From: an uncultured Lamprocystis sp.
GTDB lineage: Bacteria; Pseudomonadota; Gammaproteobacteria; Chromatiales; Chromatiaceae
Direction: 5' to 3'
Assembly (NCBI RefSeq): GCF_903933125.1
Contig: NZ_CAIZIZ010000249.1
Coordinates: 1-61,063, forward strand
DNA: 61,063 nucleotides
In this document: positions 13,486-47,265 of the stretch, in pieces
How the letters are laid out: each line of letters opens with the position of its first letter
Numbering within the stretch: position 1 is the stretch's first letter
Notes under the pieces: generated by a model
The model's database searches: none
What the model was told of the DNA's origin: nothing
Seen by the model: only the letters and a program-made list of their open reading frames with translations
Made by a program: the position numbers and the translations under genes

Positions 13486-13514
13486 TCGATCGCCATGCAC
13501 AGCCGCGAGCCGCT

Positions 13515-13540
13515 CCCGCCCTATGATCCCGCCCTATGAT
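13515..13540. repeat. 13-base tandem duplication at the HPt gene start
   Basis: CCCGCCCTATGAT occurs twice in direct tandem (13515-13527 and 13528-13540). Removing one copy would join the ATG at 13495 in frame with the rest of the HPt gene. With two copies that frame ends after 14 codons, and translation must use the ATG at 13523 inside the repeat. Confidence 0.85.
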
Positions 13541-13879: not shown

Positions 13880-14161
13880 ACCCTCCGGGCTATTGCCTGG
13901 CCGCGCCGTTGGGCGTTCTAATAGCCCGATGGGCGGCGTTGGTTCCAGGGGGCTCGCCCGTTGGCGCGGTGCACGACCGGCGAGCGCTCGACGACGCGGG
14001 CGCCACGTCGCGGTGCCGGACCTGCCGGCTCCGCCAGACCCGAACGCTTCGCCAACGATTGCACCAAGCGCGGGACCGCGGCATGTTAAGCCGACCCTGC
14101 GTGTGCCAGTGTCGACCAATCCCGCGATTGGACCGCTTCATCTCCATCAACCGGTAGGCGA

Positions 14162-17063: not shown

Positions 17064-17110
17064 AGACCATGGATCGTAACCTCGTGTCCGTGTCGTTATG
17101 TCTTGGGGAA

Positions 17111-17395
17111 TTACTGCCGCCGTAAGACATCGATCAGCCCGGCGCAAAATCCGAAATACTCGCCACGGAGCGATTGGTAGGCGGCGGTTCGTGGCGACAT
17201 CGGGCGTTCGGCCGTGGTGCGCCCGTCAGCGGCACCCATGCGCCGATGGAGCCGCTCCAAGATGTAGCCCAACTCGTTCGGCGCTATATCTTCCCCGGAG
17301 ACGATCCGGGCGCGCAGGGACAGGACGAAATCGCGTGCGGCCAAGTAACCGCGACGGTAGCCGCGTTGAAAAGGAGAGATATTCGACTTGATCAT
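17111..17395 (-). CDS. small hypothetical protein
   Basis: The 94-residue product starts MIKSNISPFQRGYRRGYLAA and has a GGGAGA ribosome-binding site just upstream. It is basic and helical with no membrane segment, and ends in FGFCAGLIDVLRRQ. A longer frame opens upstream to 17713 but does not look coding. It is convergent with the hybrid kinase gene and on the same strand as the tra block. I do not recognise the family. Confidence 0.65.
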   Translation of the reverse strand: MIKSNISPFQRGYRRGYLAARDFVLSLRARIVSGEDIAPNELGYILERLHRRMGAADGRTTAERPMSPRTAAYQSLRGEYFGFCAGLIDVLRRQ

Positions 17396-17928
17396 TGTTC
17401 GTCTCCCGGCCCTTGAGCGATGCAAGTCCAACAGCAAGGGCTGCTCACGGTCGATTCGGCGGGCTCCGACGATTCGACCTATGGGAAGCCTTCCGTTCCC
17501 GCCCCGGAGCCTAGCGAATGACTGCGAACGCTCAATGGACGTCAAAAGACGCGACTGTTCCACTATTCGGATGACCGTGACGACGCGCCTTGGGATTGCC
17601 CATGGCAACTCACTTGGAACACTGTCCGGTGACCTTCGTTGGAGGAGAGCATGGTTCGCAGTCGAGGTTGCTCCCCAAGATTGCGAACAAATGCGCGGTA
17701 TACCAGGCGTCAAAGGCGCCGATTTTCATGGCGCTCGCAGCGGTCAAAGCGGCTGAACCGGCACGACAGAAAACGAAATGTAGTATCCTTATAGGGGATC
17801 CGGCGTGGATGCCGTTGCGGGATTTGCATGGGGCTCGATAACCCTGCCAGTGATCGGCACAACGAAGATGGAGCTGACAAGAAAGACTTGATTGCTGTTT
17901 CCTCTTCGGGAAGGTGTGCCGCCCACGA
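17396..17928. other. intergenic region, no gene seen
   Basis: Frames here are short and shadow-like on both strands. The region separates the small gene ending the minus-strand block from the membrane-protein gene downstream of traG, and may hold a promoter for the former. Confidence 0.4.
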
Positions 17929-18417
17929 CTATTTGTTATCCTCGGATCTGTCGACATGAGATTCGCCATAAAAGCATCCACCCGAATCCATTCCGGCATA
18001 GCTGTCCACAGAGCATCCGGTCGCTGGATTGATGATATTCCGCTCCCAATCATTCCACGGGTTTGCTTGTGGCCAATCATCAAATAGCGCAGACGGGCTT
18101 GCCGTCGTATTCGGCGCGGGTCTTATGGAGTCGCAGTCGGAGTCGTTTGGTGACCACTCGCACCATGCCCTGCGGTTAGCGTCCTCTGCCACTGACGGGT
18201 TTCCGTCGCTGGAAGCGGGTGCGGCATGGCGCGAGGCAACATTCCGCTGGCTCATCAATCCTCGCAGGCCGGAAGCCGCAAGCTGGACAAAGAGACCAGA
18301 AATTACCATGGTCACGCCGAGATCGCGGTCGAAAACGAACGCGCCCACGATGAGAATCGTAACCGCGAGCGTCCACCAGGAGCGGCCGGGAACGGTACGC
18401 AAAGCAGAGAAGTTCAT
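17929..18417 (-). CDS. hypothetical inner-membrane protein downstream of traG (candidate entry-exclusion protein)
   Basis: The 162-residue product has two hydrophobic segments near the N-terminus (SWWTLAVTILIVGAFVF and LGVTMVISGLFVQLAASGL), then a polar tail ending in a motif of the NPATG...GMDSGGCFYG type. GGAGA lies just before the ATG at 18417. It is the first gene after traG on the same strand. In SXT/R391 elements the entry-exclusion gene eex lies downstream of traG and encodes a small inner-membrane protein, so this is a positional candidate; I see no sequence proof. Confidence 0.65.
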   Translation of the reverse strand: MNFSALRTVPGRSWWTLAVTILIVGAFVFDRDLGVTMVISGLFVQLAASGLRGLMSQRNVASRHAAPASSDGNPSVAEDANRRAWCEWSPNDSDCDSIRPAPNTTASPSALFDDWPQANPWNDWERNIINPATGCSVDSYAGMDSGGCFYGESHVDRSEDNK

Positions 18418-18501
18418 CTTGGTCTCCGTTGTTAAACCTGAAATCCACCCCGGTCGGGTCGCGATGCCGGTCGCCACCGATCGATTCGGGACCAGCACCT
18501 G

Positions 18502-21500: not shown

Positions 21501-22170
21501 CCCAAGCCTCCGGGCACTCCTTGGTGACCGGGTTGCCGCCGATCCACAACTGGGTGGTCGGGACCACCAGCGAACTGCCAAGGGCGTCGGCCCAGTTGGG
21601 ATTGCGCAGGATGTCGTCGGCGCTGCGGGTGCCGTTGTTGTACCCGTAGAGCGTGCATTCGGAGAGGTAATTGACGAAGGTCTTGGCCATGTCCGCCCCA
21701 GCGGTTGGGGCATTGGCCGCCCCCAGCGCGGACATCGACAGCGTCGTCTTGCGCACCCCTTGCAGGATATGCAGCGGTGCGGCGAACCCGTACTCGGTCA
21801 TGGCCGGGGTGGAGAACGCCTGCTCGAAGAGCCGGGCCACCCCGAAGCCGATCTGGCTCATCGCCGAACCGATCGCCGCCGGGCCGAGCGGGACATTGTC
21901 GACCACGCGCACGGCCCCGGAGTAGACATCCTCCACCGACAGCCGCACGGTCGGGCCGAACATCCCCAGATAAATGACCCAGGCCACCAGCAGGTGTTGG
22001 AGCTGCGGCGGCCGGGCCTGGATGATCCCCTGGAACAGGATCAACAGCAGACCGACCAGGAACCCGATGCCGGCCAGGGTGCGCATATCGCCCGAGCCCG
22101 AGAGCATGGCCACCGCGTTGAGGACCGCGGTCAGATAGGCGGCATCGCCGATCGAGACGATTTCCCACAT
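18502..22170 (-). CDS. traG: TraG-type mating-pair stabilisation protein with C-terminal lytic transglycosylase domain
   Basis: The 1222-residue product has a TraG_N-type N-terminus with several membrane helices (after MWEIVSIGDAAYLTAVLNAV, and again around residues 330-460). A long, low-hydrophobicity, Gln/Ala/Ser-rich middle probably lies in the periplasm. The last about 120 residues form an SLT lytic transglycosylase domain, with catalytic glutamate near residue 1119 in AIAYVESTFN, then GAQGMFQIMP and AYNAGP motifs. TraG stabilises mating pairs and, in F and SXT systems, takes part in entry exclusion. The fused muralytic domain could open the peptidoglycan for the transfer channel. It lies 9 bases after traH. 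Confidence 0.92.
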   Translation of the reverse strand: MWEIVSIGDAAYLTAVLNAVAMLSGSGDMRTLAGIGFLVGLLLILFQGIIQARPPQLQHLLVAWVIYLGMFGPTVRLSVEDVYSGAVRVVDNVPLGPAAIGSAMSQIGFGVARLFEQAFSTPAMTEYGFAAPLHILQGVRKTTLSMSALGAANAPTAGADMAKTFVNYLSECTLYGYNNGTRSADDILRNPNWADALGSSLVVPTTQLWIGGNPVTKECPEAWGDLSAYLMTQYEPALRRSVAATLGIRNPDEVPGAVNAALDAIAGGGVGAQNYMVMATAAAFLPYAEAKNKRDLLQYQDAVAIEQAAQQRNTQWASEERLFARIVRPMMTFFEAFLFAVSPLMVFAVGLGPVGIRMVGKYLLFGLWIQLWQPILAIINLYLLMAIRFKLDALQDAGLGNTPLPSIYAIWKLDFLISDYLGVGGMLAASTPAISLMLIYGSAVTATHLAGRLQGGDLINEKIASPDVVNPAAALTVGPIHDHGPIRGTAAPGAESVTWTANVGQDVQRDLRSSQQAMERSSQGFASALSSAASLTASRSGESFEGHASTWMKDGAKSATDQVVWQTAEGLTQQYRESGLSTNQLAAILSGGLGGAANFRGSSQERQEAARADISSKLQSQYQVQTNLADEMATDIARKVTSSEGLETRIAEALKVDSSSGNRNVFSAGLRGEESSNLTKSADDILSSSRSLDHAESQAERFGTLGSYNGVPTGAALVRPENQAQIERLEQQIARYNLDGDVQYETHRLLAGGVTADPEQARAMAGMGLLLGHADGERVRSMTAGERASAKEAGMEILSGLFNFRTPDRIAPDRNADLSGTVPGFGATRSQVDAVGLRDARPDAQGLPEQVAAHARGVQDTWSPTAPDRFAQGAGRDVSTFRSDRQHAMHLEQQATLGAIIEQRALLPRTAAQIGHNEVGGVFARLAESGAVTRAGAEGVAGQVTAGAKAFAQSLMDGKGLGASLQAGREAAGDEQGWTAAREALIDARMRQISSYGLTPAQAQLYRQATESVFSFAPTAAQQTARQAVIDESGPRTGAHLAELIERSAGSKDDSDLRLIGAYNRTTVEEKKSHEQGLSKRGGVEQPLVAPAHLSGHFREVERKYDLPSGLLTAIAYVESTFNLGAVSPAGAQGMFQIMPKTAAALGVANPFDPVEAAEGAAMHLARDYRTFGNWEHAVMAYNAGPQRIQNYLAGIGRPLKQETLDYLPKVEAALRRVNAST

Positions 22171-22179
22171 GGCGGCGAC

Positions 22180-23640
22180 TCAGTTGGCGCTCTCAGTTCC
22201 GGAATCGGGGACCCCGGACACCATGGAACGCCCTTTCAGCAGCCCGGCCAGGTTGCCGTAATACTGCATCAGCGATTGCAGATTCCCGTGCCGCTGGGCG
22301 AGCTCGGTATACTCCTGCGCCACATCCTCCTTGGCTGCCCGGATCTGTTCGACCGCCTGTTTTGCATAGGGGCTGTCGTGGATCGCCACCGCCCCCTCGA
22401 CCTGGCGGATCAGGTCGTCGATCAACAGCTTAGTCATCTCCAAGGCAATGATCGGCGACGCCTGTTCGGCGAAGGCCCGCGCGGTACCGCTGTCGTGCTG
22501 CCCGAGATTCCGGAGCATCGCCCCGACGCCATGCGGGGCCAGTTCCATGAACGCCTTCTCGGCATCGGTGAACGCCAGGTTGCCCCAGCGGAACTTCTCG
22601 ACCAGGCCGACGTTCGCCGCATTGCGCGGATCGCCCAGCAGCATTCGGCTGGTGTACTGGGCCAGGCCCACCAGGGCGTCCTCGCCGACGATCTGCGGAT
22701 CGAGGCAGGCGTTCACGTCGCGATCCAAACAGTCGTAGCGCTGCACGACCTGGGTGGTGCGCCGAACCGGGTCGCGCTCATGCACCCGCGGTCCCCACAG
22801 CAGATCCCGCACCGACAGCACGTTGCCGCGCAAGGGCGTAATCCGGGCCGATTCGCCGGCACCATCGGGTGCCGACTCGGCGGGACCGACAATCACGCTG
22901 CCGGTCACGCTCATGATCGCTTCGAGCAACCGGTCGTCGCCGCCCGCGAAGCGTGCCGCGACATTGCTGCGCTTGAGCGCCTGCCAGACGATGTTGCCTT
23001 GCAGGTCCGCTTGGGAGCGCTGCGCATCCGAGAGATTGGTCCGGGCCTGAGTCGCCGGACCCTGACCGGTGCTGGCAGTCCAGGTCTCGAAGATGTCGCC
23101 GATGCCCGTCGTGGCCAACGTCTGCGAGGTCTTGGCCGTCAGCGTGCCCTGGAAGGCCGAGACGGTATCGTTGACGAGGCCCTGGGCCAGTTGGCACGAG
23201 TCGGCGAAGCCCTGGTTGAGTTTCTGGAGGGTGTCCTGGAGCTTGCTCATCAGTTCGCCGGCCTCGCGCGACATGGCATTGACCGCCAACTGGAAGGCGT
23301 AGCCGGCGGCATTGGCGGCAATCGCGCGCAGTAGGGCCTGGAACTGCTCGGCGTTGATAAAGCTGAAGCTGCCCGCGTACAGGTCGATGCCGCCGCAGCC
23401 GGCCTCGAACGAGGGCGGTACGATGTGCCAGAGCGATTCGGCCGCGATCCGGTTGCGCGCCTGCAAGGACCCGCCGTCGAAGACTCCGCGCCGCTGCCCC
23501 AGGTGCGCACTGGGGGCGGTTGCGTTGGTCATGGTATTGAACAGCCGCTCGGACTGTTCGGCGATGCCGTCGGCGCGCAGGCCGCCGGCATCAAGCAGGA
23601 TCCCAAGGACGAGCGGGGCGATGCGCAGCAGTCTATTCAT
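22180..23640 (-). CDS. traH: TraH, conjugative pilus assembly protein
   Basis: The 486-residue product begins with a signal peptide (MNRLLRIAPLVLGILLDAGGLRA region) and has the TraH layout: CGGIDLYAGSFSFINAEQFQALLRAIAANAAGYAFQLAV near residue 100, a helical middle, and a C-terminus with repeated polar helices. TraH is a periplasmic F-type assembly factor working with TraF, TraG, TraU and TraW. Its start overlaps the end of traF by 8 bases. Confidence 0.92.
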   Translation of the reverse strand: MNRLLRIAPLVLGILLDAGGLRADGIAEQSERLFNTMTNATAPSAHLGQRRGVFDGGSLQARNRIAAESLWHIVPPSFEAGCGGIDLYAGSFSFINAEQFQALLRAIAANAAGYAFQLAVNAMSREAGELMSKLQDTLQKLNQGFADSCQLAQGLVNDTVSAFQGTLTAKTSQTLATTGIGDIFETWTASTGQGPATQARTNLSDAQRSQADLQGNIVWQALKRSNVAARFAGGDDRLLEAIMSVTGSVIVGPAESAPDGAGESARITPLRGNVLSVRDLLWGPRVHERDPVRRTTQVVQRYDCLDRDVNACLDPQIVGEDALVGLAQYTSRMLLGDPRNAANVGLVEKFRWGNLAFTDAEKAFMELAPHGVGAMLRNLGQHDSGTARAFAEQASPIIALEMTKLLIDDLIRQVEGAVAIHDSPYAKQAVEQIRAAKEDVAQEYTELAQRHGNLQSLMQYYGNLAGLLKGRSMVSGVPDSGTESAN

Positions 23641-34937: not shown

Positions 34938-37900
34938 ATGGTTCGTCATATCCCCTGCGGAACTTTCGTCAACGAAAGCGAACGCATCGCCTGCGAGCGG
35001 TTGCGGGCCAAGCTCCAGGGCGCCGAAGGCGATTGGATCATCCTCTCCAACCTGAGTCACGCCCAACACACCGGTGCCCGCGCGGACGAGATCGACCTCG
35101 TCGTCATCGGCCCGCCCGGCGTCTGCACCGTCGAGGTCAAGCACTGGGACGCGGCCTTCCTGCGCAAGGACTCGCTGACCGTCGACCACGAGGCCGACCG
35201 CATCGACACCAAGGCCAAGCGGATCGCCGGCCGGCTGCGCACCGGCCTGGATGTCGGTTTCGTCGCGGGTAAGTTGCTGCTGACCAAGGGAGATCTCCGC
35301 TTCCCGTCCGACCGGCGACCCAAGCCGCGCGGTATCCCGGTGTTCGGACTGCCGGAGTGGCAGGAACTGCTCAACGTCGGCGGCGGCCAAGGCCTGTCAC
35401 CCGAGCAGATCGCCATGGCGGCCCGCCTGCTGGAGCCGCGGGTCAAGGTCGCCCTCGACGGCGATCTGCGCCGCTTTGCCGGGCTCATCAACCTGGAGCG
35501 GCTGTCAGCACCCGCCGACGCCTTCCATCGCATCTATCGCGGCCAGCACCCCACCCGGCGCGATCGCGTCATCCTGCACCTGTACGACCTGTCGGCGAGC
35601 GACGACAAGGACGCTCTTACGCTCGCGCGGCGCGAATTCGACAGCATCCAGCGCTGGCAGAAGGCCCAGTTCATCCCGAGCCTGCTGGACTCCTTCCAAG
35701 AGGCCGAGGGCTATCCCGGCGAGTTGCACTTCTTCTCGCTGGTGGACCCCGCGGCCCCGAGCCTGCGCGAACGGCAGGCCGATTCCGGCTGGGACCCGCC
35801 GGCCAGGCTCGCCTATGCCCGTGCCGCCGTCGCCGCCCTGCAGGAATTCCATCGCCCACAGGACCCGCAGGTGGGACCGGCTTTGCACCGGCAGTTGACG
35901 CCGCGCAGCCTGCGGGTGCGACACAACAATCAGCCGCTCTTTACCGAGCTCAACCTGACGCGGTTGCAGGATGCCGTCACCGTGGCGCCAACACGGCTCG
36001 ACTGCGGCGAGCTGACGCCCTTTTTCGCCCCGGAGGTGTGCGCGGGTGGTCTCGGCGTTGCCGATACCCGCTCCGACACCTTTGGCCTGTGCGCGTCACT
36101 GCTGCTGCTGTTCGACGGGACCGATCCTCTCTCCCGCGGCATCGCGCCCGTGCTGGAGGTCGGTTGTGCCCCGGCCCCGGCGGATCGCGCGACGCTGGAC
36201 GCGGTCGCGGCCCGGCTTGCGGCTCTCGCCGAGGTCCCGGAGGCCCGCACGGATCTGGCGCCAAGCCTGCCGCCCGCCGAGTATTGGGACGAGGACACCG
36301 TGGTCCCGTTCCAGCAGTCGCGCTACAAGATCCTTGGCCGACTAGGGCAAGGCGGTGTCGGCCAGACCTTCAAGGTCGTCGAACTGGACCAGGGGTCGGA
36401 CGAGCGCTTCGGCACCTATGTGGCCAAGTTGGTCCGTCACGCGGAAGACGGTAAGGCCGCCATTCACGCCTACCGGCTGGCCCGCGCCTACACCACGCAT
36501 CCCCACCTGTCCGCCATCCACGAGTACGCCGCCGAGTGGGAACAGGATCGCTTTGTGGCTCTGCTCAAATGGGTGGAAGGCACACCCTTGCACGACCTCG
36601 CCGGGGTGCTGCCGATCCTCGCCGAGGACCTGGGTGAGGCGTCCGACGAGGCCCTCGCGCGGCGTTGGCTGCGCCAGATCTGCACCGGGCTCGATGCGCT
36701 GCATCGGGTGGGGCTGGTCCATGGCGATGTCAGCCCGCGCAATATCATCGTCGGCGGCGGCAATGCCGTGCTTACCGACTACGACACCGTTGCCCGCACC
36801 GGTCAGATACCGCGGGGCGGTACCTTGCCTTACGCGAGCCCGGCGGTGCAGTCACGCGCCCCCATCACCCCCGCCGACGACCTCTATGCGCTGGCCGCAA
36901 GCCTGTTCCAGGCCCTCACCGAACGCGACCCCTTCACCCATGGCCCCGAACGACGCAAGGACCTGGGCCTCTGCTGGGACAGCATCGACGGCCTGACGCG
37001 CCTGCGTCCGTTCCTCGATCAAGCGACCGACCCCGACCCTGGCCGCCGCTTTCGGGACGCCGCCGAGGCCCTGACCATCCTGGATGCACTGGAGGCGGAG
37101 ACGGCCGACGATCCAAGCAGCGGCATCCCAACCCGGCCGACGGCTGCCGAGCCCCCGCCGCCGCCCTTGTCCGCCAACACCAATCCCTGGCTGGACGAAC
37201 TGCTGCGCACCTACCCCGGCTCCCGTCACGGGGTGCGCGAAACCCGCGGCCTGGACTCGGCGTTTGCGATCTCGACCTATGTGGAGACCCGGCTCGATCA
37301 GGTGTTGTTCGACGACATCGAGGCGGGGCGCGTCAACCTCGTGATCCTGTTCGGCAACGCCGGCGACGGCAAGACCGCCTTCCTGCAACACCTGGCCCGC
37401 CGCCTGGGCCTCGGCGAGATCCATTCCTCCCGCCGGGTCTGGGAGACCGACCTCGCCGACGGCCGCCGCGTCATGGTCAATCTGGACGGCGCCGCCGCCT
37501 GGCAAGGCCGCGATGCCAACGCGCTACTCGACGACCTGTTCGCGCCCTTCCAGGTCCCGGACTTCCCGCGGGATCGCGTCCACATCGTCGCCGTCAACAA
37601 CGGCAAGCTCCTGGAGTGGATCGAGACCCGCCCGGCCGAGACCTGGCTCACCCGTTCACTACGCCAGGTGCTGCTGTGTGACGTACCGGCACCCGAGGCA
37701 CGGTTTCGGCTCATCGACTTGAATCGCCGCTCACTGGTTGGCGGCATCGACGCCGATCGACAAGGGCTCAGCGCCGACTTTCTGGGGGCACTGATCGACC
37801 GGCTCGTCGGTACCCAGCACGCGCCCGACCCCTGGCAGCCCTGTGCGACTTGTACCGCCAGCGGTCGCTGCACCGCCTGGAACTCGGTTCAGACCCTGCG

Positions 37901-38864
37901 CGACGCGGCGAGCGGTCCCCGCCTGCGCAACCGTCTCACCGAACTGTTCCAGGCCTGTCATCAGCGAGGCGAGGTCCACATCACCGCCCGCGAGTTGCGG
38001 GCGGCCCTGTCCTATTGTCTCTTCGGTCTCGACGACTGCGCCGACCTGCACCAGGACCCCGACCGTCGCCCGGTGCCCTTCTGGCACCGCGCCTTTGACG
38101 CCGGCTCCGACCAGCGCCAGGGCGAACTGCTCGCCGAGATGGCCCGCTTCGACCCGGCCCTGGAGGCCGACCCCGCTATCGACCGTGTGTTGCTGCGCCA
38201 GGATGCGGCCGTCGGTGGCCCCGACCGGCTCCGCGAGGCCCGCCGCCGCGCCTGGCTGCGGCGCCCGGACCCAGCCCCCAACCAGGATGAAGACGACGGC
38301 GTGCGGCTCAGTCACGGCCGCCATCTCGCCCGCTTTCGCGATCTGCCGCTGCTTCCGCCCTCGGACCAGGACGCCACGCTACGCGACCTGTGCTTAGGTA
38401 TCGCCCGCCTGGAGGACCTCCCCGCGCTCGCCTTCGTCCCCGACAACCTGGCCCGCGGCGTGCCGCTGCGCATCACCCCACGCACACCCACCGAAAGCGC
38501 CTTCTGGGTGGTCAAGCCCTGGGACCGGTTCAGCCTCGAACCCGCGCTGCCGCTGGCGGCCGATGGACTGGAGCGCCTGCATACCCATTTGCACCTGACT
38601 TACCGGTATGCGCAAGGCGGCACTGAGACCCTGATTATCGGTCTGGAGATCTTCCATCTGCTGCTGGAACTGAAGGACGGCACCCAACTCTCCGGGGTCG
38701 GCGAAGAGGGCGTTTTCGCCAATCTGGAGATCTTCACCCAGCGCCTGGCGAGCGAAGACGCCCGCGAGTTGCACGGCTGGCATCCCAGTGACGAGCAGGG
38801 GCTGTTCCGGGTGCGCGTCGTACCACGCGAGGGGTGGCAGGTGCTGGTGCGGGAGATGCTGTGA
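34938..38864 (+). CDS. NERD nuclease, pseudokinase, Ser/Thr kinase and ATPase fusion (PglW-like plus DptF-like)
   Basis: The 1308-residue product has four parts. Residues 1-120 form a NERD domain with DEID at 50-53 and EVK at 66-68. Residues about 180-440 resemble a protein kinase but lack HRD and DFG residues (HRQLTPRS at 317-324), so this is a likely pseudokinase. Residues about 463-715 are a probable active kinase: GQGGVG loop at 470-475, K497, HGD at 595-597, N602 and D614. From 750 onward is a P-loop ATPase with Walker A GNAGDGKT at 806-813 and a small cysteine cluster (C969, C972, C978). NERD plus kinase recalls PglW of type 2 BREX; the ATPase part recalls DptF. AGGGAGG precedes the ATG. 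It heads a candidate defence operon. Confidence 0.85.
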   Translation: MVRHIPCGTFVNESERIACERLRAKLQGAEGDWIILSNLSHAQHTGARADEIDLVVIGPPGVCTVEVKHWDAAFLRKDSLTVDHEADRIDTKAKRIAGRLRTGLDVGFVAGKLLLTKGDLRFPSDRRPKPRGIPVFGLPEWQELLNVGGGQGLSPEQIAMAARLLEPRVKVALDGDLRRFAGLINLERLSAPADAFHRIYRGQHPTRRDRVILHLYDLSASDDKDALTLARREFDSIQRWQKAQFIPSLLDSFQEAEGYPGELHFFSLVDPAAPSLRERQADSGWDPPARLAYARAAVAALQEFHRPQDPQVGPALHRQLTPRSLRVRHNNQPLFTELNLTRLQDAVTVAPTRLDCGELTPFFAPEVCAGGLGVADTRSDTFGLCASLLLLFDGTDPLSRGIAPVLEVGCAPAPADRATLDAVAARLAALAEVPEARTDLAPSLPPAEYWDEDTVVPFQQSRYKILGRLGQGGVGQTFKVVELDQGSDERFGTYVAKLVRHAEDGKAAIHAYRLARAYTTHPHLSAIHEYAAEWEQDRFVALLKWVEGTPLHDLAGVLPILAEDLGEASDEALARRWLRQICTGLDALHRVGLVHGDVSPRNIIVGGGNAVLTDYDTVARTGQIPRGGTLPYASPAVQSRAPITPADDLYALAASLFQALTERDPFTHGPERRKDLGLCWDSIDGLTRLRPFLDQATDPDPGRRFRDAAEALTILDALEAETADDPSSGIPTRPTAAEPPPPPLSANTNPWLDELLRTYPGSRHGVRETRGLDSAFAISTYVETRLDQVLFDDIEAGRVNLVILFGNAGDGKTAFLQHLARRLGLGEIHSSRRVWETDLADGRRVMVNLDGAAAWQGRDANALLDDLFAPFQVPDFPRDRVHIVAVNNGKLLEWIETRPAETWLTRSLRQVLLCDVPAPEARFRLIDLNRRSLVGGIDADRQGLSADFLGALIDRLVGTQHAPDPWQPCATCTASGRCTAWNSVQTLRDAASGPRLRNRLTELFQACHQRGEVHITARELRAALSYCLFGLDDCADLHQDPDRRPVPFWHRAFDAGSDQRQGELLAEMARFDPALEADPAIDRVLLRQDAAVGGPDRLREARRRAWLRRPDPAPNQDEDDGVRLSHGRHLARFRDLPLLPPSDQDATLRDLCLGIARLEDLPALAFVPDNLARGVPLRITPRTPTESAFWVVKPWDRFSLEPALPLAADGLERLHTHLHLTYRYAQGGTETLIIGLEIFHLLLELKDGTQLSGVGEEGVFANLEIFTQRLASEDARELHGWHPSDEQGLFRVRVVPREGWQVLVREML

Positions 38865-38937
38865 GCGGCGATACTTGTCCATATGCCCGGTCGCGCCAGG
38901 CTGAGCGCTTTACATCCATTCACAGCGAAGACCCGCG

Positions 38938-39342
38938 GTGACCACCATTACGCTGGATTTGTCCGAGTCCCTGGTCCGACAGGCAAGCCAGGCCGCACGA
39001 CTCATGCACCGCCCCTTGGAGCAGGTGCTTGCCGTGCTGCTGGAGGCGGCCCTGCCGCCATTGGACGACTGCCCGCCCAAGCTCCAGACCCAACTGATCG
39101 AGATGACCTGGCTAAGCGATGGCGCCTTAATGGATATCGCCAAGTCCAGCATGTCGGAGCCCGACCGGCTGCGCCTTACAGATTTGGGGCTGCGTGCCGA
39201 CGCGCTGACGGCCGCAGAACAAGAGAACCTGGCACTGTTGCGGGAGTGCTGTGGCGAACTGACCCTGCGCAAGGCCCGCGCCTATGCGCTGCTCAGTTTC
39301 CGCGGCGGCGAACGACTGCTCGCGCACGCGGCTGCGGCTTGA
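38938..39342 (+). CDS. antitoxin-like hypothetical protein
   Basis: The 134-residue product starts at a GTG. Its N-terminus (MTTITLDLSESLVRQASQAA) resembles ribbon-helix-helix-type antitoxin-like proteins, followed by a longer helical region. It opens a run of five small tightly packed genes (to 40255) between two large cargo genes. No known toxin partner directly follows; the next frame is only 45 codons. Function uncertain. Confidence 0.6.
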   Translation: MTTITLDLSESLVRQASQAARLMHRPLEQVLAVLLEAALPPLDDCPPKLQTQLIEMTWLSDGALMDIAKSSMSEPDRLRLTDLGLRADALTAAEQENLALLRECCGELTLRKARAYALLSFRGGERLLAHAAAA

Positions 39343-39479
39343 TGGCCGATGCAGAACGCTTTCATAACGACCTTGCCGTCTACTCCCAAGCTGCGCAAGA
39401 CCATATCCGCGCATTGGGTTTCAAGACCATCGTGGCCCCGCCGCAATACACTTTCAAAAGCCAAACCCCGAGTGATTGA
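39342..39479 (+). CDS. very small hypothetical protein, possibly truncated
   Basis: This 45-residue frame (MADAERFHNDLAVYSQAAQD...) starts in the stop codon of the upstream gene (TGATG) and ends one base before the next ATG at 39481. The tight packing supports translation. Its size suggests either a small partner of the antitoxin-like protein or the remaining N-terminus of a larger gene replaced by the next cassette. Confidence 0.45.
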   Translation: MADAERFHNDLAVYSQAAQDHIRALGFKTIVAPPQYTFKSQTPSD

Positions 39480-39480
39480 C

Positions 39481-39726
39481 ATGAACGCCACCGAAATCAT
39501 TAAGATGAGCGTCGCAGAGCGGATCGAGGCCATGGAGGCCATCTGGGATTCTCTCATGATCGCCGACGCCAAGATAGAATCGCCGGATTGGCACCACGAT
39601 GTCTTGGCCGAGCGGCGCAGACGGCTTCTCGATCCTTCCGCGGAATTCGTTTCGCTGGCGGATCTCAAAATCGGGAATAAACTGTTACGGGGAAAACGAT
39701 GGGCTACATCGACAGAATCGTATTAG
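39481..39726 (+). CDS. addiction-module component (TIGR02574-like antitoxin)
   Basis: The 81-residue product contains IIKMSVAERIEAMEAIWDSL and VLAERRRRLLDPSAEF, the pattern of the short addiction-module antitoxin family that usually precedes a RelE/ParE toxin. No RelE-like gene follows; instead its last 28 bases overlap a DUF433 gene. It may be an orphan left by an earlier cassette or a third component of the downstream pair. Confidence 0.7.
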   Translation: MNATEIIKMSVAERIEAMEAIWDSLMIADAKIESPDWHHDVLAERRRRLLDPSAEFVSLADLKIGNKLLRGKRWATSTESY

Positions 39727-39926
39727 CGCCGGGTAAGCGCGGTGGGCGTCCCGTCATCCGCGGCCTTCGCATTACCGTTTATGATGTCCTTGGATGGCTT
39801 GCGGACGGCATGACCGCCGACGAAATCATCGAAGATTTTCCGGAGTTGGAAAGGGCCGACATCCAAGCGTGCTTGGCCTTCGCCGCTGATCGCGAACGCC
39901 GCGCGGTCGTTGTTCAAACGTCATGA
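39699..39926 (+). CDS. DUF433 antitoxin
   Basis: The 75-residue product carries GRPVIRGLRITVYDVLGWLADGMTADEI and DFPELERADIQACLAFAADRE, the classic DUF433 (VapB-like) sequence. DUF433 proteins typically precede DUF5615 PIN-like toxins, exactly as here with a 4-base overlap. It probably binds DNA and represses the pair. Confidence 0.9.
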   Translation: MGYIDRIVLAPGKRGGRPVIRGLRITVYDVLGWLADGMTADEIIEDFPELERADIQACLAFAADRERRAVVVQTS

Positions 39927-40255
39927 GGCTGCTGCTGGATGAGAACCTGTCGCGCAGGATCGTGCCATTCCTGCAAGCGCATTATCCGGGAAGCAGCCAG
40001 GTTGTACTTGCCGGCTTGGAGCAAAAGACCGATCTTGAAATCTGGAAGTACGCTAAGGAGCACGGGTTCACGATTGTTACCAAAGATTCGGACTTTCAAG
40101 TCCTAAGTTTGCTGAACGGCGCTCCGCCTAAGGTCATCTGGCTGCGGATCGGCAATACCAACAAGGCGAATGTAATTCGCGTCCTAACCGAGCGTTGCGA
40201 TGCGATTGTAGATGCCATCGCGGATGCGCAGATAAACTGCCTGGAAATCGGATGA
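39923..40255 (+). CDS. DUF5615 PIN-like toxin
   Basis: The 110-residue product begins MRLLLDENLSRRIVPFLQAH and contains DLEIWKYAKEHGFTIVTKDSDF, the conserved acidic layout (D6/E7 and TKDSDF) of DUF5615 PIN-like nucleases. It is expected to act as an RNase toxin neutralised by the DUF433 protein encoded upstream. The pair would stabilise the cargo block or the whole element. Confidence 0.9.
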   Translation: MRLLLDENLSRRIVPFLQAHYPGSSQVVLAGLEQKTDLEIWKYAKEHGFTIVTKDSDFQVLSLLNGAPPKVIWLRIGNTNKANVIRVLTERCDAIVDAIADAQINCLEIG

Positions 40256-40269
40256 ACAGCAGCGGGCAT

Positions 40270-40400
40270 TCTTTGGTCTCCAAGATCTGCTTGAGAACCT
40301 ATGCCGGGAAGCTTTGCTTCCTGAATCGAGCAACCAAAGCAGAGCTTTGCCCGCCACATTTCCAGGCAGAGCTTGGGAGCGACAAATTGAAGGGGTCAGC
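40270..40400. repeat. REP-like dispersed repeat remnant
   Basis: The sequence GGGAAGCTTTGCTTCC is a perfect hairpin, and CATTTCCAGGCAGAGCTTGG with its flanks resembles the AGCTTGGGAACGA-type intergenic repeats I know from many bacterial genomes. It lies between the toxin gene and the 595-aa gene and carries no gene of its own. Confidence 0.4.
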
Positions 40401-40403
40401 ATC

Positions 40404-42191
40404 ATGCGAAACATTGTCGAGGACGTACTCACAAAAGAGCGGACCAAACGGCTCTGGACGACGAATTATTTTCCGGCTCTGCCGATCACGCCGCAGGACT
40501 TCGACATCGGAGCCGTGCTCCCGACGATGCTTTACCTTGCTCGATTCGGACACCGCCGCGGTAAAGGGAAGTTCGTCAGCACATTCGGACAAAGCACCAC
40601 AGGGGGGCTCAAGGCGCCGACTGTGTCCGATGTCGCCGAGAGGCTGACCGCGCGTCACACAACCCAGATCCAAGGTTTCGACGATGAGATCGGCAAAGCG
40701 GTCCTAAGTGATTTACTGCTGTCCCGGTGCCTGGAGAACCGCAAGCACGCGCAAGGACACCATGAGCAGGTGCAGCGCATCTTTCCGACGCACTATTTCG
40801 CGAGTTGGATCGACCTGCCGGAGCAGTCTGTCAATTTGCGTAACGTACCTGAACTCTTGACGGCTCTGCTTGCCTCACAACCCGTCGGCGAGTCGCTCGA
40901 CCCTCTCGGGGTAGGGCCGTTTCCAGTGGGCGTTGCCGATCTCGCACAAAACCGCTTGCTCGCGCTGTTCGGGCGGCACTGTGCCATCCGCGGTCCGCAT
41001 GCCGCAAACTTGGCATCCGATGTGTTTTTGGAGGATATTGCAGAGGATATCGGTATTGATGAGTTACTGGCTATCCGGATCGCGAATGCCTGTGGAAACG
41101 CTCCCGACAGTGCTGGGAAGGACAACAATATTCCTAATCGGCACCCATTGGCTAGCCTGGCCGCAGGTGCTCTTCAAGAGGATCTTGCCGTATTCATTTC
41201 CGCCTACGGTCGAGCGATCCCGCGTCATGCATTTCTCCAGATGCTGGAAGCGGGAATCGGACTCGGTTTGCTCAATCTTCTCTTATCGACTGCTCATATT
41301 GTTAACGACTGGGAGCATACTGGCGAGGTCATCGCCGGTGCGCTGCAAACCGGGCTGCCGCTCTTTGTCGACGCATCCCAGGGCCAAAATGGAACGCTCA
41401 GGGAGCTATCTGAGGCATCACTGACGGAGTGTCTACGTCGTTACGACCGGCTCCCTGTCGGGATGATGTTGTTGCGGGTATTGGATGAGGCGGTCGCGTC
41501 CGATCCTGACCTCAAAGACGCATTGCCTCAGGGGCATCCAGCCCCCTCCGATCGTGTCGGGTTTCTTGGTGATATTCTTCACGAGCGACATCCCGACGCA
41601 CGCCTGATACGGCGTGATCTGGATCGGGACTGTCAGCGACTTGCCGATTCGCTGGAGAGAAATGATTTTGCAGAGAATGTCGTTACGATACTGAGATCAA
41701 AGGATCGTAACGCGGCCGTTCGACTTGCGGAAGCTCTCTGCGATCTGATGGGTGACAGGCAGCAAGCGGCGAAATTTCGACTCGCATTGGACAGCGCCCT
41801 ACTGACCGACAAGTCAAATGGCCTTGCTGTGCGGCGTCGGGTGAGTCGGACAGTCGACGGTAGACGACGCAGCCTTGATGTCCGTTCCATTGTGCTCTCT
41901 TCGGCAACCTTGGATTTCCTCGTCCATCGCCACCTGCGCGATGGTGTTGACGGCGAGTCGTCGTGCCCCCTGACGCTGCATCATTTCCTGGATCTGCTGC
42001 GTGATCGCTATGGTCTCTTCGTGGACCAGGAGCCACCCGGCCAATTGATCCCTCGCGAGTTGCTGCTGAAGAACAAGGCGTGGCTGGAACGGCGGCTACG
42101 TGACCTGGGACTGCTGATTGGCGTCAATGATGCGGAGTCGATGAAGCAATTGCGCCCTCGCTATCAAGGAGTCGCGAGCCATGTTGACTGA
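40404..42191 (+). CDS. 595-aa protein of the candidate defence operon (possible DptG-like partner)
   Basis: I do not recognise a domain with confidence. The product starts MRNIVEDVLTKERTKRLWTT, preceded by AGGGG, and is soluble and largely helical. It contains no Walker or nuclease motif that I can see. It overlaps the downstream 1694-aa HerA-like gene by 11 bases, which ties the two functionally. In DptFGH systems a mid-sized protein of unknown biochemistry (DptG) lies between the F and H ATPases; size class and position fit. A sampled line is about 53% G+C, lower than in the flanking cargo genes, so it may have its own history. Confidence 0.7.
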   Translation: MRNIVEDVLTKERTKRLWTTNYFPALPITPQDFDIGAVLPTMLYLARFGHRRGKGKFVSTFGQSTTGGLKAPTVSDVAERLTARHTTQIQGFDDEIGKAVLSDLLLSRCLENRKHAQGHHEQVQRIFPTHYFASWIDLPEQSVNLRNVPELLTALLASQPVGESLDPLGVGPFPVGVADLAQNRLLALFGRHCAIRGPHAANLASDVFLEDIAEDIGIDELLAIRIANACGNAPDSAGKDNNIPNRHPLASLAAGALQEDLAVFISAYGRAIPRHAFLQMLEAGIGLGLLNLLLSTAHIVNDWEHTGEVIAGALQTGLPLFVDASQGQNGTLRELSEASLTECLRRYDRLPVGMMLLRVLDEAVASDPDLKDALPQGHPAPSDRVGFLGDILHERHPDARLIRRDLDRDCQRLADSLERNDFAENVVTILRSKDRNAAVRLAEALCDLMGDRQQAAKFRLALDSALLTDKSNGLAVRRRVSRTVDGRRRSLDVRSIVLSSATLDFLVHRHLRDGVDGESSCPLTLHHFLDLLRDRYGLFVDQEPPGQLIPRELLLKNKAWLERRLRDLGLLIGVNDAESMKQLRPRYQGVASHVD

Positions 42192-45100
42192 AGCCATCCG
42201 CTCCATCTTGAAGGGCGCCTTCGCTCGGATTCTCGGGCAACCAGAGTCTGGAAGTATGGCCTTTGTCCGCTGTCTGCCCGCCGAGTTGGTTGGGACGCTC
42301 GCGGCGGATGCCGCATTCGTGCTGGAGGGTTGGCAGGTCGCCGCGGTCAGGGATACCGCCGACCCGGCGGCACGCTGCATTACGGCGGACCAGGCCGTCG
42401 AATGGCGCGAGGACAAGGCCGACGCTGCCCTTTTGCTGATCGACCCGCAGCGTGCCGGGGCGGGCATGGACGGCATCTACAGTGCCGCGCGCGAGATCGG
42501 CGAGTCAGAATTGTTCGATCTGGCGGTCGAGTTGGCCCGGCAACGACTGCCCCACGGCTGCAAGGGCTTCGCGCTGAAGGCTCTGTTCAAGGCGGGTTGG
42601 AAAAAGCGCCGCCGCCCGTTGGCGCCCTGGTCCGCATTGGCCTACCTGGGCCGTGCGGCCGAGGATGCACAGGTCGTCGGCACGGCCCTGCCGATGATTG
42701 GCTTGTGGCCGATCGCGATCACAGACCGCCCAAGCGAAACGGACCTGGACCACGCCGCCGTGCTGGTCGAGCGTTTACTCCCAGCCCAGGGCGCGCGGAT
42801 TGCCCCGGAGCAACGGGTAGCCGCGTTGAACCTGGACGCGGGGCAGGAGGTAACCGCGGTGCGGCTCGTCGGATTGTTGCGTGAGGTCGATGGGCTGCCG
42901 CGGATGCAAGCCTTGCAGCGCATCGCGCTGGAACAGGACCTGTGGCTGAATCACTTGCGGCCAGGATTATTCGATCAACAGACCCTGCAGGGTATTCGCA
43001 TCCAGTCCTGGCGGCAGCGCAAGGGCGATCCGTATCGCTGGTCGGGACTGGTCCCAAATCCAGACGGGGAGCTTGAGCTGCGCCTGAGCCTGGCGAGCGA
43101 CGACGGACACAACCAAGCCCGGTTGGAAGTGCGATGGACCGCGGAGCCGGAGGGTCTCGCGCCTGGGGCAGCGACCTATCAGGTTGAGGTCCATGCAGGT
43201 CAAAACGTGCTGGCGGAGCGCAGCGTCAGTCACGCGGGCAAGTCGGCGGAAAAGGCCGTGTTCAGCCAGGACGACTTTGATCTGGACGAGAACGCGCGGT
43301 TTCAGGCACAGGTGCGAATCACGCCGCTCGGTGACGCTGCGTGCGAGCCGGCCGAGAGCGAGGGATTCATCCTGTGCTTTGGTGACGCATCACGGGGACC
43401 AGCGACGAGCAGCGCCGGCAAGATCGCGGCGACGCTGTCGCTGGCCGCCATTCAGGTCGTCCCGGATTGGGACACCTTCAGGCAACTGGCCAAGCAGCCC
43501 GGCGACCCGGCCTGCTTCGAGACCGACAAGAAGGGATTCATCCTGTGCAAGTGGCAGGGCAAGGTCGCAAAGGTCTTTTGTCCGCCGCTGTTTCGACAGC
43601 TCAGCGAGGACTGGATCGCGCGCAACGGCGCGCTCGGGCGTTGGCGCCTGCGGGTGCGGGAGGACGGCGCTCCGGTCGGCTCACCCGAGTTTGTGCCGAT
43701 GGGCGACAGTGACGCGACCGAGCCGCTCGCTGCGGCATCGGGAGAGTTGGCGGCTTGGCTCAAGCCGACCCAAGGTCCACTGGGCGTGCTGTATTTGGTC
43801 GATGAGCTGAAGCAGGTTGACCGTTATGTGGACGCCGCGGCCAGGCTGTGGCAGACCGGCGACCCCGAGTTGACGCTGATCCAGACCCTGGAGGTGCAGT
43901 CCCTGGCTGGGCGCTGCCTGGGCCTGATCGTGCTGCCGACCCACCCGCTGCGGATCGCCTGGCAGCAGGGGTTCGACCTCATGGTCGCCTACCATCGCTA
44001 TAACGTCGGGAATGCCGAAAGGCTCACGCCCCAGCGAATCGCGGATATCCTGAAGCCGGTGACCGGCGCCCACTATCCGGCCTTCCTGCCGGGGCTCGAA
44101 CCGGGCCGGACCTTCGTCTTCGGCGATACCCTCGGGTTCCATGCGGCGGCCATGGTCGCGGCCGATGACCCTGAGCCCAAGGCAACCTTGGCGCTGCTCG
44201 GTCGGCTCCTGGGCGGCGAGGCGGCCACGGCGCCCTCGGTCGGCGATGGTGCGGCCGATGCCTTGGCGGGCGAACTGGGGCGCTATCTGCAATTGCATCC
44301 GCTGTATCGGCGCATCCGGGTCCATGCCCTGCGGGCCGGTGATGCGATGCCGGTCGCCCGGGCCCTCGGCAAGGCGCTGCGGGCCGTCGCCGCGGATGAC
44401 GAGACTGCGGATGACGGCGATGATACGCACTGTTTTGAGTTGGAGTTGTTCCCCGGTGCCGGGCAGTCCAGCGCGCAGACCGGGCGCTTCTTGTCGGCCA
44501 CCGCGGAGCGTCGGCGCAGCGGTGCTGGGGCGGTGCCGGAGGAGGATCGTTGGTTGTTGCAGAGCGTGACGCGCCCCGGCGGGGTGAGCCTGCCGCGGCT
44601 GCGCTGGGCACGACGTAACCGGGACCGCCCGCAAACCGCGGCCCATGTCGCCATTGCCTTCGATGTCTTCAACTCCAGGGTTGAGTGCCGCGACCTCGCC
44701 GCCCTGCCGGCGGATGGCGGCGTGCTGGAGGCCCACGGCCTGATGCTGATCCCGTCGCGGGAGTTCCATGCCGGTGCAACCCCCCATTGGCTGTCCTACA
44801 TCCCACCGAAGCCCAAGGGAGATCTCCACCCCTTTCCGCCGAAGTTGACCAAGCGCCAGGTTGATTTGCATAGCAAGGTGCTGCGGGCGACCGCGCGCCA
44901 TCTGGGGGGTGGCGATGCGGCTTGGCCGGTGCTGATTACCGAGGTCAGCCCGGAACAGGCAGACCTGCTCGCGGACCTGCACCATCTGTGCGATTGGGTC
45001 ATGACCGCCGACCGCAATGCCGGGATGGAGTATTTCGACTCTCCGCATGAGCTGCCGACGGTCTACGACGCCTACGTCATCGACTGTGTGCCGGAGCGCG

Positions 45101-47265
45101 ACGACCTGGGCTTTATGCAGTTGATCACCTCCACCAGCAACCTGGATGAAGTGGTCGGGCTGCTCGACACTGCCTTGGGCGAGATGGGCCTGTCCGCGAG
45201 CCCACGTAATTGCCGTTCCCTGCTGGATGCGCTGAAGGCGGTGAGCGGCCGATTGGCGCTGCGCCTGGCAGGAGCGGGCACGACGACACAGCAAATGATC
45301 GCAATTGCGCTGGTGCAGGGGCAGTGCAGCCGCGCCGTTGTCGGCCATCCGGTCTGGCCGGCGTTGACCGAGGGCTTTCTGATCCCGGTAGACGATGTGC
45401 CGGAACTGTTCCGCAAGCCTGCCAAGCCGGGGCAGGAGGGCGATGAGCGCGCCGACTTGCTGTATGTGTCGGTCGGCGCCGACGGCGGGCTCGCGGCGAC
45501 CTTCATCGAGGTCAAGTTCCGCCGTTATCTGAAGACCGCCCGCGCGGCTGATCTGGTCGCGGCGATGGAGCGTCAGCTTGAGGCATCCTGTCAGCGTTGG
45601 CATGGGCTCTTCGGCGCGCGCACCTCGACCCTGGAGCAGACCGTCAACCGGGCATGGCTGGCGCGCATCCTGCGCTTCTATGCGAAGAAGGGGCGCCGAC
45701 ATGGTCTCACCGCGGCGGCCTATACGCGGCTGATGCGCGAGATCGACCGCTTCTTGGTCCGCAAGGAAATCGACCTGCCGGACCTGCTCGATCTGCGCCG
45801 ATTGGGTTTCGTCTTCTGCCCTGAGTATGGCGGGGCGCAGCCGGCGCGGATCGAGCAGCTCGGCCATGCGGACCTGTGGCTGTTCGGGGCCGGAATGCTG
45901 CCGGAGCCGGGTCTGGCGTCGGCGGACGGCGGGCCGGGCGACCCTGGCGACCCCGAGGCGCCGATCAACGACGTGGCGCGTGAAGGCATCGCGGCCGTCG
46001 TCGGATGGCAGGAAAACACCGCCGCCGCCCCAACTGGGACTGCGCTGTCGGCGGACGAGGCCTCGGCACTGAGCGATTCGCAGTTGCATGAGGGCGCGCC
46101 GGGGAGTCATGCCGATACCGAGCCCGATGACCCCACAGAAGAACCGCCAAGTCCCGCTGCGGTCATCCAGCCCGCGGCCGGAGCGCCGCCGGTCGGTGAG
46201 GCCAGCGTGCTGCTCGGCCATCAGCACCCCGGCGATGATCCGCTGTATTGGCACCCGATCATTCAAGCCAATCCGCACCTGATGATCCTGGGCCTGCCGG
46301 GGATGGGCAAGACCACCAGCCTGATCAACACCTGCATCCAACTCGACGCCCAGGGTGTGACGCCGATCGTCTTCTCCTACCACGAAGACATCGACGAGAA
46401 GCTGGCCTTGCACCTGCCGCAGCAGCCACTGGTAGTCCGCTACGCCGGGCTCGGCTTCAATCCGATGGAGGTGGTCGGCGACGGCCCCGTCGCCTATCTG
46501 GACAATGCCGGTATGTTGCGCGACATCTTTGCGGCGATCTTTCCCGACCTGGGGGATGTGCAGTTGGGTCGGCTGCGCGATGCGCTCAAGCAGAGCTATC
46601 TGGACCAAGGCTGGGCACCGGGCCAACGTGGTGAAACCCCCGCGTTTCACACCTTTCTGGAGCGGTTGCGCACCGAGGACAAGCCGGACAAGGGGCTGCT
46701 GACCCGACTGAGTGAATTGGATGATTATGGGCTGTTCGCAACCGTCCCCGGCACCGGCGCGCCGACCTTGCTCGACCAGACGCGCCCGGCACTGATCCAG
46801 ATTCACGGCACGCAGAACGACTACCTGCAGCGCGCCTTCGCCACCTTCGTACTCTACAACCTTTACCAGGGCATGTTCCGACGCGGGGTGCAGCGCCGCA
46901 TCACACACGCGGTGATCTTCGATGAGGCCCACCGCGCCGCGCGCCTGAAGCTGCTCGCGACCATGGTCAAGGAATGCCGCAAGTATGGCATCGCCTTTGT
47001 CGTCGCCTCCCAAGAGGCCAAGGACTTCGACCCATCGCTGTTCACCGCGATAGCGAATTATCTGGCCCTGCGACTGAACGACGCCGACGCCAAATTGATC
47101 GCCAAGACCTTTGCCGCCTCCGACCGGGTGGCGCTGTACGCGGATCGGATAAAGCAGATGAAAAAGTACCATGCGATGTATTACGGGGAGGGCCTGCGGG
47201 CACCGATCCTGGTGGCGCTGGGGCAGTATCAGACCCCGAACCATCCGGAAGACGCCGTTGGCTAA
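42181..47265 (+). CDS. DptH-like HerA/FtsK-family ATPase with probable PD-(D/E)XK domain
   Basis: The 1694-residue product has a long N-terminal region of unknown fold. A segment RADLLYVSVGADG...ATFIEVKFR, with E1110 and K1112, looks like a PD-(D/E)XK nuclease core. An acidic/proline-rich linker follows at about 1260-1330. The C-terminal HerA-type ATPase has Walker A GLPGMGKT at about 1371-1378 and Walker B FDEAHRAARL with D1581/E1582. Length and layout match DptH, the large ATPase of DNA phosphorothioation-dependent restriction, but no dnd modification genes are present. It is the last and largest gene of the candidate defence operon. Confidence 0.8.
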   Translation: MLTEAIRSILKGAFARILGQPESGSMAFVRCLPAELVGTLAADAAFVLEGWQVAAVRDTADPAARCITADQAVEWREDKADAALLLIDPQRAGAGMDGIYSAAREIGESELFDLAVELARQRLPHGCKGFALKALFKAGWKKRRRPLAPWSALAYLGRAAEDAQVVGTALPMIGLWPIAITDRPSETDLDHAAVLVERLLPAQGARIAPEQRVAALNLDAGQEVTAVRLVGLLREVDGLPRMQALQRIALEQDLWLNHLRPGLFDQQTLQGIRIQSWRQRKGDPYRWSGLVPNPDGELELRLSLASDDGHNQARLEVRWTAEPEGLAPGAATYQVEVHAGQNVLAERSVSHAGKSAEKAVFSQDDFDLDENARFQAQVRITPLGDAACEPAESEGFILCFGDASRGPATSSAGKIAATLSLAAIQVVPDWDTFRQLAKQPGDPACFETDKKGFILCKWQGKVAKVFCPPLFRQLSEDWIARNGALGRWRLRVREDGAPVGSPEFVPMGDSDATEPLAAASGELAAWLKPTQGPLGVLYLVDELKQVDRYVDAAARLWQTGDPELTLIQTLEVQSLAGRCLGLIVLPTHPLRIAWQQGFDLMVAYHRYNVGNAERLTPQRIADILKPVTGAHYPAFLPGLEPGRTFVFGDTLGFHAAAMVAADDPEPKATLALLGRLLGGEAATAPSVGDGAADALAGELGRYLQLHPLYRRIRVHALRAGDAMPVARALGKALRAVAADDETADDGDDTHCFELELFPGAGQSSAQTGRFLSATAERRRSGAGAVPEEDRWLLQSVTRPGGVSLPRLRWARRNRDRPQTAAHVAIAFDVFNSRVECRDLAALPADGGVLEAHGLMLIPSREFHAGATPHWLSYIPPKPKGDLHPFPPKLTKRQVDLHSKVLRATARHLGGGDAAWPVLITEVSPEQADLLADLHHLCDWVMTADRNAGMEYFDSPHELPTVYDAYVIDCVPERDDLGFMQLITSTSNLDEVVGLLDTALGEMGLSASPRNCRSLLDALKAVSGRLALRLAGAGTTTQQMIAIALVQGQCSRAVVGHPVWPALTEGFLIPVDDVPELFRKPAKPGQEGDERADLLYVSVGADGGLAATFIEVKFRRYLKTARAADLVAAMERQLEASCQRWHGLFGARTSTLEQTVNRAWLARILRFYAKKGRRHGLTAAAYTRLMREIDRFLVRKEIDLPDLLDLRRLGFVFCPEYGGAQPARIEQLGHADLWLFGAGMLPEPGLASADGGPGDPGDPEAPINDVAREGIAAVVGWQENTAAAPTGTALSADEASALSDSQLHEGAPGSHADTEPDDPTEEPPSPAAVIQPAAGAPPVGEASVLLGHQHPGDDPLYWHPIIQANPHLMILGLPGMGKTTSLINTCIQLDAQGVTPIVFSYHEDIDEKLALHLPQQPLVVRYAGLGFNPMEVVGDGPVAYLDNAGMLRDIFAAIFPDLGDVQLGRLRDALKQSYLDQGWAPGQRGETPAFHTFLERLRTEDKPDKGLLTRLSELDDYGLFATVPGTGAPTLLDQTRPALIQIHGTQNDYLQRAFATFVLYNLYQGMFRRGVQRRITHAVIFDEAHRAARLKLLATMVKECRKYGIAFVVASQEAKDFDPSLFTAIANYLALRLNDADAKLIAKTFAASDRVALYADRIKQMKKYHAMYYGEGLRAPILVALGQYQTPNHPEDAVG

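Follow-up and report, generated by a model that had tools for sequence, protein, structure and literature searches.

The three genes at 34938-47265 of the window, by which we mean the whole analysed stretch of 61,063 nt (uncultured Lamprocystis sp., GCF_903933125.1, contig NZ_CAIZIZ010000249.1, positions 1-61,063, forward strand), probably encode a restriction complex that stands alone, having no DNA-modification module; it would belong to the DndFGH superfamily and, within it, to the kinase-fused MAD6-MAD7-MAD8 type. Homology and neighbouring genes make the trio very probably a defence effector, and it looks like the DNA-cutting half of Dnd and MADS systems but without linked DNA-marking genes. 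Our reading of the open reading frames confirmed the three genes, all on the plus strand and encoding conserved proteins (M6, M7 and M8), with the sizes of 1308, 595 and 1694 aa given by an earlier, sequence-only reading of the window. A 1.5-kb insert with toxin-antitoxin-type genes, absent from that reading, separates the M6 and M7 genes. The features are as follows.

34938..38864, plus strand: M6, a MAD6/DndF homologue of 1308 aa, consisting of NERD, pseudokinase, Ser/Thr kinase and DndF-type P-loop core (profile matches, hhalign)
34974..35159, plus strand: NERD nuclease domain of M6, with D53, E66 and K68 (Pfam NERD, E 4e-8, residues 13-74)
36324..36953, plus strand: active-looking kinase domain of M6, with K497, H595-G-D597, N602 and D614-Y-D616 (Pfam Pkinase, E 1.3e-16, residues 463-672)
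37167..38861, plus strand: DndF-type core of M6, with Walker A GNAGDGKT, Asn in Walker B and a three-Cys Zn-like insert (SspF, E 1e-18)
38938..39342, plus strand: putative 134-aa open reading frame, no Pfam match
39481..39726, plus strand: putative addiction-module antitoxin, Unstab_antitox (PF09720, E 2e-10)
39699..39926, plus strand: DUF433 protein (PF04255, E 1.6e-24)
39923..40255, plus strand: DUF5615 PIN-like protein (PF18480, E 5.6e-34)
40404..42191, plus strand: M7, MAD7/DndG-position protein of 595 aa, predicted DNA-binding subunit (NCBIfam MAD7, E 2.5e-34)
42181..47265, plus strand: M8, DndH/MAD8-like nuclease-translocase of 1694 aa (DndH, E 4e-18; mad8, E 3e-18)
45442..45900, plus strand: REase (PD-(D/E)XK) region of M8, end approximate, with D1092, E1110 and K1112 (R-A-D and E-x-K invariant)
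46204..47244, plus strand: HerA-type motor domain of M8, with Walker A GLPGMGKT, Walker B FDEAH and a sensor Gln (7es4 DptH, E 9e-11)

Profile searches bore out the parse of M6 as a fusion of NERD, pseudokinase, kinase and ATPase. More specifically, the MAD6 profile covers residues 1-554 (E 3e-47), the SspF/DptF-type P-loop lies at residues 783-1033 (E 1e-18), and profile comparison of DptF with the core at residues 744-1308 gave an E value of 2.5e-12. The core carries an N-L-D-G strand 2, an A-x-N Walker B and three conserved Cys, matching the description of DndF in PMC10853773 (Walker A, Asn in Walker B, a polar strand 2 motif and, in some proteins, a Zn-insert lid). Active sites were compared in alignments of 17 M6 and 19 M8 proteins, some of them partial (L013, for example, is without the M6 N-terminus). 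In the M6 rows that cover them, the NERD residues D53, E66 and K68, the kinase residues K497, HGD 595-597, N602 and DYD 614-616, and Walker A (806-813) together with the Asn of Walker B were all invariant. In its first copy, the kinase shows HR but lacks the catalytic Asp in 6/6 of the window-clade rows compared and in 4/6 MADS-type rows, the Asp being kept in the MADS-type rows L031 and L043. A NERD domain followed by pseudokinase and kinase is also the arrangement of PglW of type 2 BREX, as the sequence-only reading had remarked. That likeness holds, but the PglW score of M6 is 32 bits, far below the cut-off of 990, and by profile the nearest relatives of the trio are MAD6-7-8 rather than PglW. 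The BREX genes of the window lie about 26 kb away and no BREX gene is common to most relatives (loci L001-L020); the trio does not qualify as a member of type 2 BREX.

The third protein was likewise found to be the DptH-like HerA protein it had been taken for, with matches to DndH (E 4e-18) and to the solved DptH motor 7es4 (E 9e-11). Its proposed EVK nuclease motif is genuine: E1110 and K1112, together with D1092, are invariant in the covering rows of the 19 M8 proteins, as are the core residues of the HerA Walker A and Walker B, and the REase motif is common to Dnd and MADS. The domains upstream of the REase tie to DndH only via a MADS bridge in profile comparison, and an AlphaFold model of M8 residues 540-1335 (12 sequences) was poor, with a mean pLDDT of 40.

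The start of M7 was set at the conserved position 40404, the longest open reading frame beginning further upstream. M7 gave no match in Pfam, its match to SspG is weak (E 0.0013), and DptG did not match it in profile-profile comparison. The AlphaFold model of M7 (14 sequences) is of low quality, with a pLDDT of 59, and a Foldseek search of the PDB with this model returned 0 matches at E <= 0.001. M7 relates to DndG only by position and a weak match. The earlier placing of the middle gene in the DptG position holds for gene order, but homology to DptG was not recovered by profile.

Our M7 scan of the genome collection, which detects close relatives only, returned 16 loci in 15 genomes (L005 and L007 belong to one genome). 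M6 lay upstream of M7 in 13/13 of these loci with enough contig and M8 lay downstream in 15/15; there is no room for M6 in L005, L019 and L020, the L005 contig starting just past the expected M6 end, and none for M8 in L012. The full trio also occurs, at 40-44% identity, on two conjugative plasmids of Rhizobium. The M6, M7 and M8 queries all found full-length matches in these same two plasmids, which were the only matches of the M7 and M8 queries, the M6 query adding four partial kinase-containing matches. In genome G523, M6, M7 and the start of M8 share one contig. The complete trio is present in 15/18 other genomes or plasmids with an M7 relative of the window clade, the remaining three being cut by contig ends. 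By record title the M7 relatives are mostly gamma- and betaproteobacteria, along with some MAGs labelled Myxococcota or Synechococcaceae, and many of them are fragmentary MAGs. M7 matched in 3/369 genomes of the class, the window's own genome included. A tblastn search of phage records at E 1e-5 and a scan of viral contigs with two peptide patterns yielded no M7 relative. An all-against-all comparison of L001-L020 revealed no fourth gene common to most loci. Downstream of the intact trio of L007, pieces of a second, broken M8 copy are found at 18742-20026. The three genes are co-conserved (13/13 for M6 and 15/15 for M8 beside M7) and keep a DptF/DptG/DptH-like order across relatives, which supports the earlier reading; the search for the same trio elsewhere, which could have shown the genes never to be co-conserved, found it in other genomes.

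Judged by profile comparison, M6 and M8 are homologues of DndF and DndH, and the nearest relatives of all three proteins are MAD6-MAD7-MAD8 by profile score, the motor domain excepted, which is nearer Dnd. L082 is a real MADS, with MAD2, MAD3, MAD5, MAD6, MAD7 and MAD8 above the NCBIfam cut-offs; its MAD6 (1407 aa) has the same NERD-kinase-kinase-DndF core as M6, its MAD8 (1831 aa) ends in a mad8/HerA part and also matches DndH, and MADS shares the gene order of the trio. Profile homology between the window clade and MADS is long for all three proteins, with hhalign E values of 3e-104 over 1228 columns (F), 1.7e-20 over 374 columns (G) and 4e-50 over 1154 columns (H). Against DptFGH, the window clade gave E 2e-11 over 274 columns for F, E 6e-19 over 365 columns for H and nothing for G. 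Similarly, MADS against Dnd gave E 8e-14 for F, E 2e-13 over 959 columns for H and nothing for G in profile-profile comparison. The profile sets comprised seven MADS or MADS-like loci and five annotated or inferred DptFGH sets; M8 relatives shorter than 1250 aa were left out of the H profile and L019 and L020 out of the M7 profile, and the MADS of the window's own genome entered the F profile by its C-terminal half only. Six unrelated pairs and 18 shuffled comparisons served as controls, all with E values of at least 0.014 (noise level).

The trio differs from MADS in several respects. It lies below the cut-offs for MAD6 (161 versus 460 bits) and MAD7 (119 versus 410 bits), the NCBIfam MAD8 model did not match M8, and no MAD2 over the cut-off is linked to it. 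The motor domain alone is nearer Dnd (E 2e-24 over 315 columns) than MADS (E 5e-6 over 140 columns). In the M8-body tree (FastTree, 29 rows, unrooted; L014 and L018 were left out of the M8 trees), the window clade is separate with support 1.0, next to groups of MADS and G406 (0.996), of MADS, G406 and G463 (0.59), and of Dnd, G415 and G614 (0.945). A pairing of the window clade with MADS in this tree was considered and rejected, as the unrooted splits give just three separate groups; because of this, the closeness of the window clade to MADS is read from profile scores alone. The motor domain of M8 has likely been swapped, which the profile comparison favours, the HerA tree giving just separate groups. 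To DndFGH, DptFGH and SspFGH, the trio is linked by a DndF-type core with Asn in Walker B and a Zn-like insert, by the F-G-H order, by the REase and HerA domains of the third protein, and by stand-alone occurrence; it is set apart from DndFGH by an M7 in which profiles do not recognise a DndG, an M8 body tied to DndH only through MADS, and the lack of a linked DndC.

We searched for modification genes in the trio genomes by profile. The sequence-only reading had seen no dnd or ssp modification genes in the window. For DndC, the one dnd gene that our search covers, this extends to the window's whole genome, in which no match exceeded the cut-off (best 20 bits). The search took 18 handles representing 16 distinct genomes (G068/G371 and G199/G376 give identical matches): DndC exceeded the cut-off in 3/16, always on contigs other than that of the trio, with strong partial matches in 2 further trio genomes. 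MAD2 also exceeded its cut-off in 3/16, again always on other contigs, and none of the 16 genomes has MAD2 over the cut-off on the trio's contig, where below-cut-off matches to its profile occur in G372, G378 and G379. A general linkage to DndC or MAD2 was rejected. As far as DndC and the genes common to L001-L020 show, the trio is independent of dnd and type 2 BREX genes, and its relatives are not all linked to dnd/ssp or type 2 BREX. DNA methyltransferases lie less than 6 kb from the trio in 4/18 other loci, and no two are of the same kind: in L016/L046 the gene lies some 20 bp before M6, in L029 some 250 bp past M8, and the other two loci are L028 and L015. In the last of these (G378, Paraburkholderia phenazinium, where neither DndC nor MAD2 is over the cut-off), type I methylase and specificity genes follow the trio on the opposite strand, with about 3 kb between trio and methylase, and the specificity gene has a generic type I protein as its best match. 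By amino-methylase motif, no methyltransferase was found in 14/18 other loci, the flanks being short in many, and a rough C5 pattern found no C5 methyltransferase near the trio. With four neighbours of different kinds and none in most loci, a fixed methyltransferase partner was rejected; the presence of a methyltransferase in 4/18 loci nevertheless means that a recruited modification partner is possible.

These results bear on the strongest alternative, which we regard as unlikely but worth keeping in view: the trio may be an orphan effector that borrows a mark made elsewhere in the cell, either by MADS methylation in trans or by any host methyltransferase, and so amount to a MADS-type restriction-modification system with unlinked M and S genes. 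It stays alive because the window's own genome has MADS and two near relatives, G369 and G370, have MAD2 over the cut-off. The own-genome MADS is split over contigs, with MAD2 on C542, half of MAD6 on C252, and the MAD6 C-terminus, MAD7 and MAD8 on C384; two near full-length PglW matches also occur in this genome, on contigs other than the window's (the MADS and PglW contigs are C542, C252, C384, C147 and C411, or L100, L040, L021, L058 and L059). The methyltransferases near the trio in L016/L046, L029, L015 and L028 agree with such borrowing, but their differing kinds, their absence by amino-methylase motif from the other 14 loci, the outcome of the C5 pattern (with the flanks short in many loci) and the restriction of MAD2 to 3/16 trio genomes speak against it.

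The neighbourhood of the trio was as previously described. A conjugative element surrounds it (MobH relaxase, TraB, TraE, TraG, TraH, TraF and DUF4400), and profile matches identify BREX genes in the window, namely PglX (E 0), BrxC (E 2e-219) and BrxB (E 1.7e-6), about 26 kb from the trio. This setting among conjugation genes, the two relatives on plasmids typed as conjugative, and the resemblance of HerA motors to DNA pumps would fit a device that conjugative elements use against plasmids or competing elements, aimed at rival DNA as it enters by transfer and not at phage, and PMC10853773 proposes interception of conjugating DNA. We hold this to be improbable as a separate explanation; it is compatible with a stand-alone restriction complex, as a choice of target. 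That the trio is a decayed MADS or DndFGH remnant without function, as the lack of modification genes, the in-operon insert after gene 1, and the broken second M8 copy in L007 might suggest, is very improbable and strongly disfavoured by conservation, since distant genomes carry full-length trios of ~41-69% identity whose active sites are invariant.

For the stand-alone restriction complex that we prefer, restriction would most likely proceed without a dedicated self-mark, M6 acting as sensor-regulator and M8 as translocating nuclease. Judging from DndFGH biochemistry and from the conservation of the active sites, M8 most likely couples a nuclease to a motor, with M7 loading it: M7 would bind DNA, M8 would scan or translocate DNA by its HerA motor, and the REase domain would cut or nick it. 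The P-loop core of M6 may sense an infection signal (a nucleotide or a phage protein), upon which the kinase may phosphorylate M7 and M8 or phage proteins and thereby switch the nuclease on or off; NERD may serve as an additional or reserve nuclease. That phosphorylation discriminates self from non-self, as the sequence-only reading suggested, is a conjecture. Self DNA would be spared by a complex that stays off until triggered, not by host DNA marking by a dedicated enzyme; M6, with its nucleotide-binding P-loop core and active-looking kinase, could thus replace the chemical mark.

The sequence-only reading had called the trio a candidate new defence system, and here it did not hold up. PMC10853773 already describes a DndF with an N-terminal NERD and inactive and active kinases, as well as DndFGH as a stand-alone system that senses invaders. 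Since both the fusion and "stand-alone DndFGH" are published, the trio does not represent a novel type of system. The same source gives DndG as a triple winged HTH protein and DndH as a combination of inactive helicase, sandwiches, TRD, inactive methylase, REase and HerA. PMC12839542 restates the NERD-kinase DndF and stand-alone DndFGH beside PglW, with 0 occurrences of the word MADS. According to a 2026 review (PMC12904381), MADS is among the systems that restrict by unknown mechanisms, and the abstract of PMC11662687 presents DndFGH as a nickase and translocase acting against phage. We found neither the equation of MAD6-7-8 with a kinase-fused DndFGH, which the MADS paper (Maestri et al. 2024) may state, nor a mark-less (orphan) clade closest to MADS in the literature searched. 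A concrete, testable mechanism for MADS would follow from MAD6 and MAD8 being homologues of DndF and DndH, and the orphan clade would be a natural experiment in carrying such a nuclease complex without self-marking genes.

A broader proposal, which we consider somewhat more doubtful than probable, is that the restriction half of MADS is itself a kinase-fused DndFGH. One effector superfamily would then be paired with phosphorothioation (Dnd), with type I-like methylation (MADS, and the kinase-less F-G-HsdM-HsdS-H of G406), possibly with C5 methylation (G415), or with no dedicated mark (the window clade), the decision between self and non-self passing in this last case to the kinase and P-loop sensor.

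Other pairings of F-G-H genes were observed in the collection. In G406, contig C140 (L085/L086) has a kinase-less F and then, in a single stretch of genes, G, HsdM, HsdS and H, possibly a methylation-coupled DndFGH. In plasmids of Bacteroides, Phocaeicola, Hymenobacter and Piscinibacter, methylase genes are followed by a MADS-kind kinase-F, G and H, and an S-type subunit is annotated in those of Bacteroides and Hymenobacter. A gene that is C5-methylase-like by eye precedes an F-G-H-like set in L090 (G415, 8242-19475, minus strand), and in G614 a further F-G-H set has its F fused to a kinase. Directly after the kinase-FGH set of the Bacteroides plasmid L031, an annotated PP2C phosphatase (21520-22185) is a possible counterpart of the kinase, and an open reading frame of similar size occupies the same place in L044 (19755-20417).

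Several lineages carry toxin-antitoxin-type genes within the operon, in one of two places; the trios of Paraburkholderia phenazinium and Rhizobium are without the toxin-antitoxin insert. Between genes 1 and 2, the window has Unstab_antitox and DUF433/DUF5615 genes, of which we take the DUF433 protein (39699..39926) to be the antitoxin-like and the DUF5615 PIN-like protein (39923..40255) the toxin-like partner; L007 has DUF3368 at this position, and L005 has insert DNA in common with the window. After gene 2, a nucleotidyltransferase, a partner gene without a Pfam match that we presume to be HEPN-like, or both, are found in L009, L010, L012, L017 and L019.
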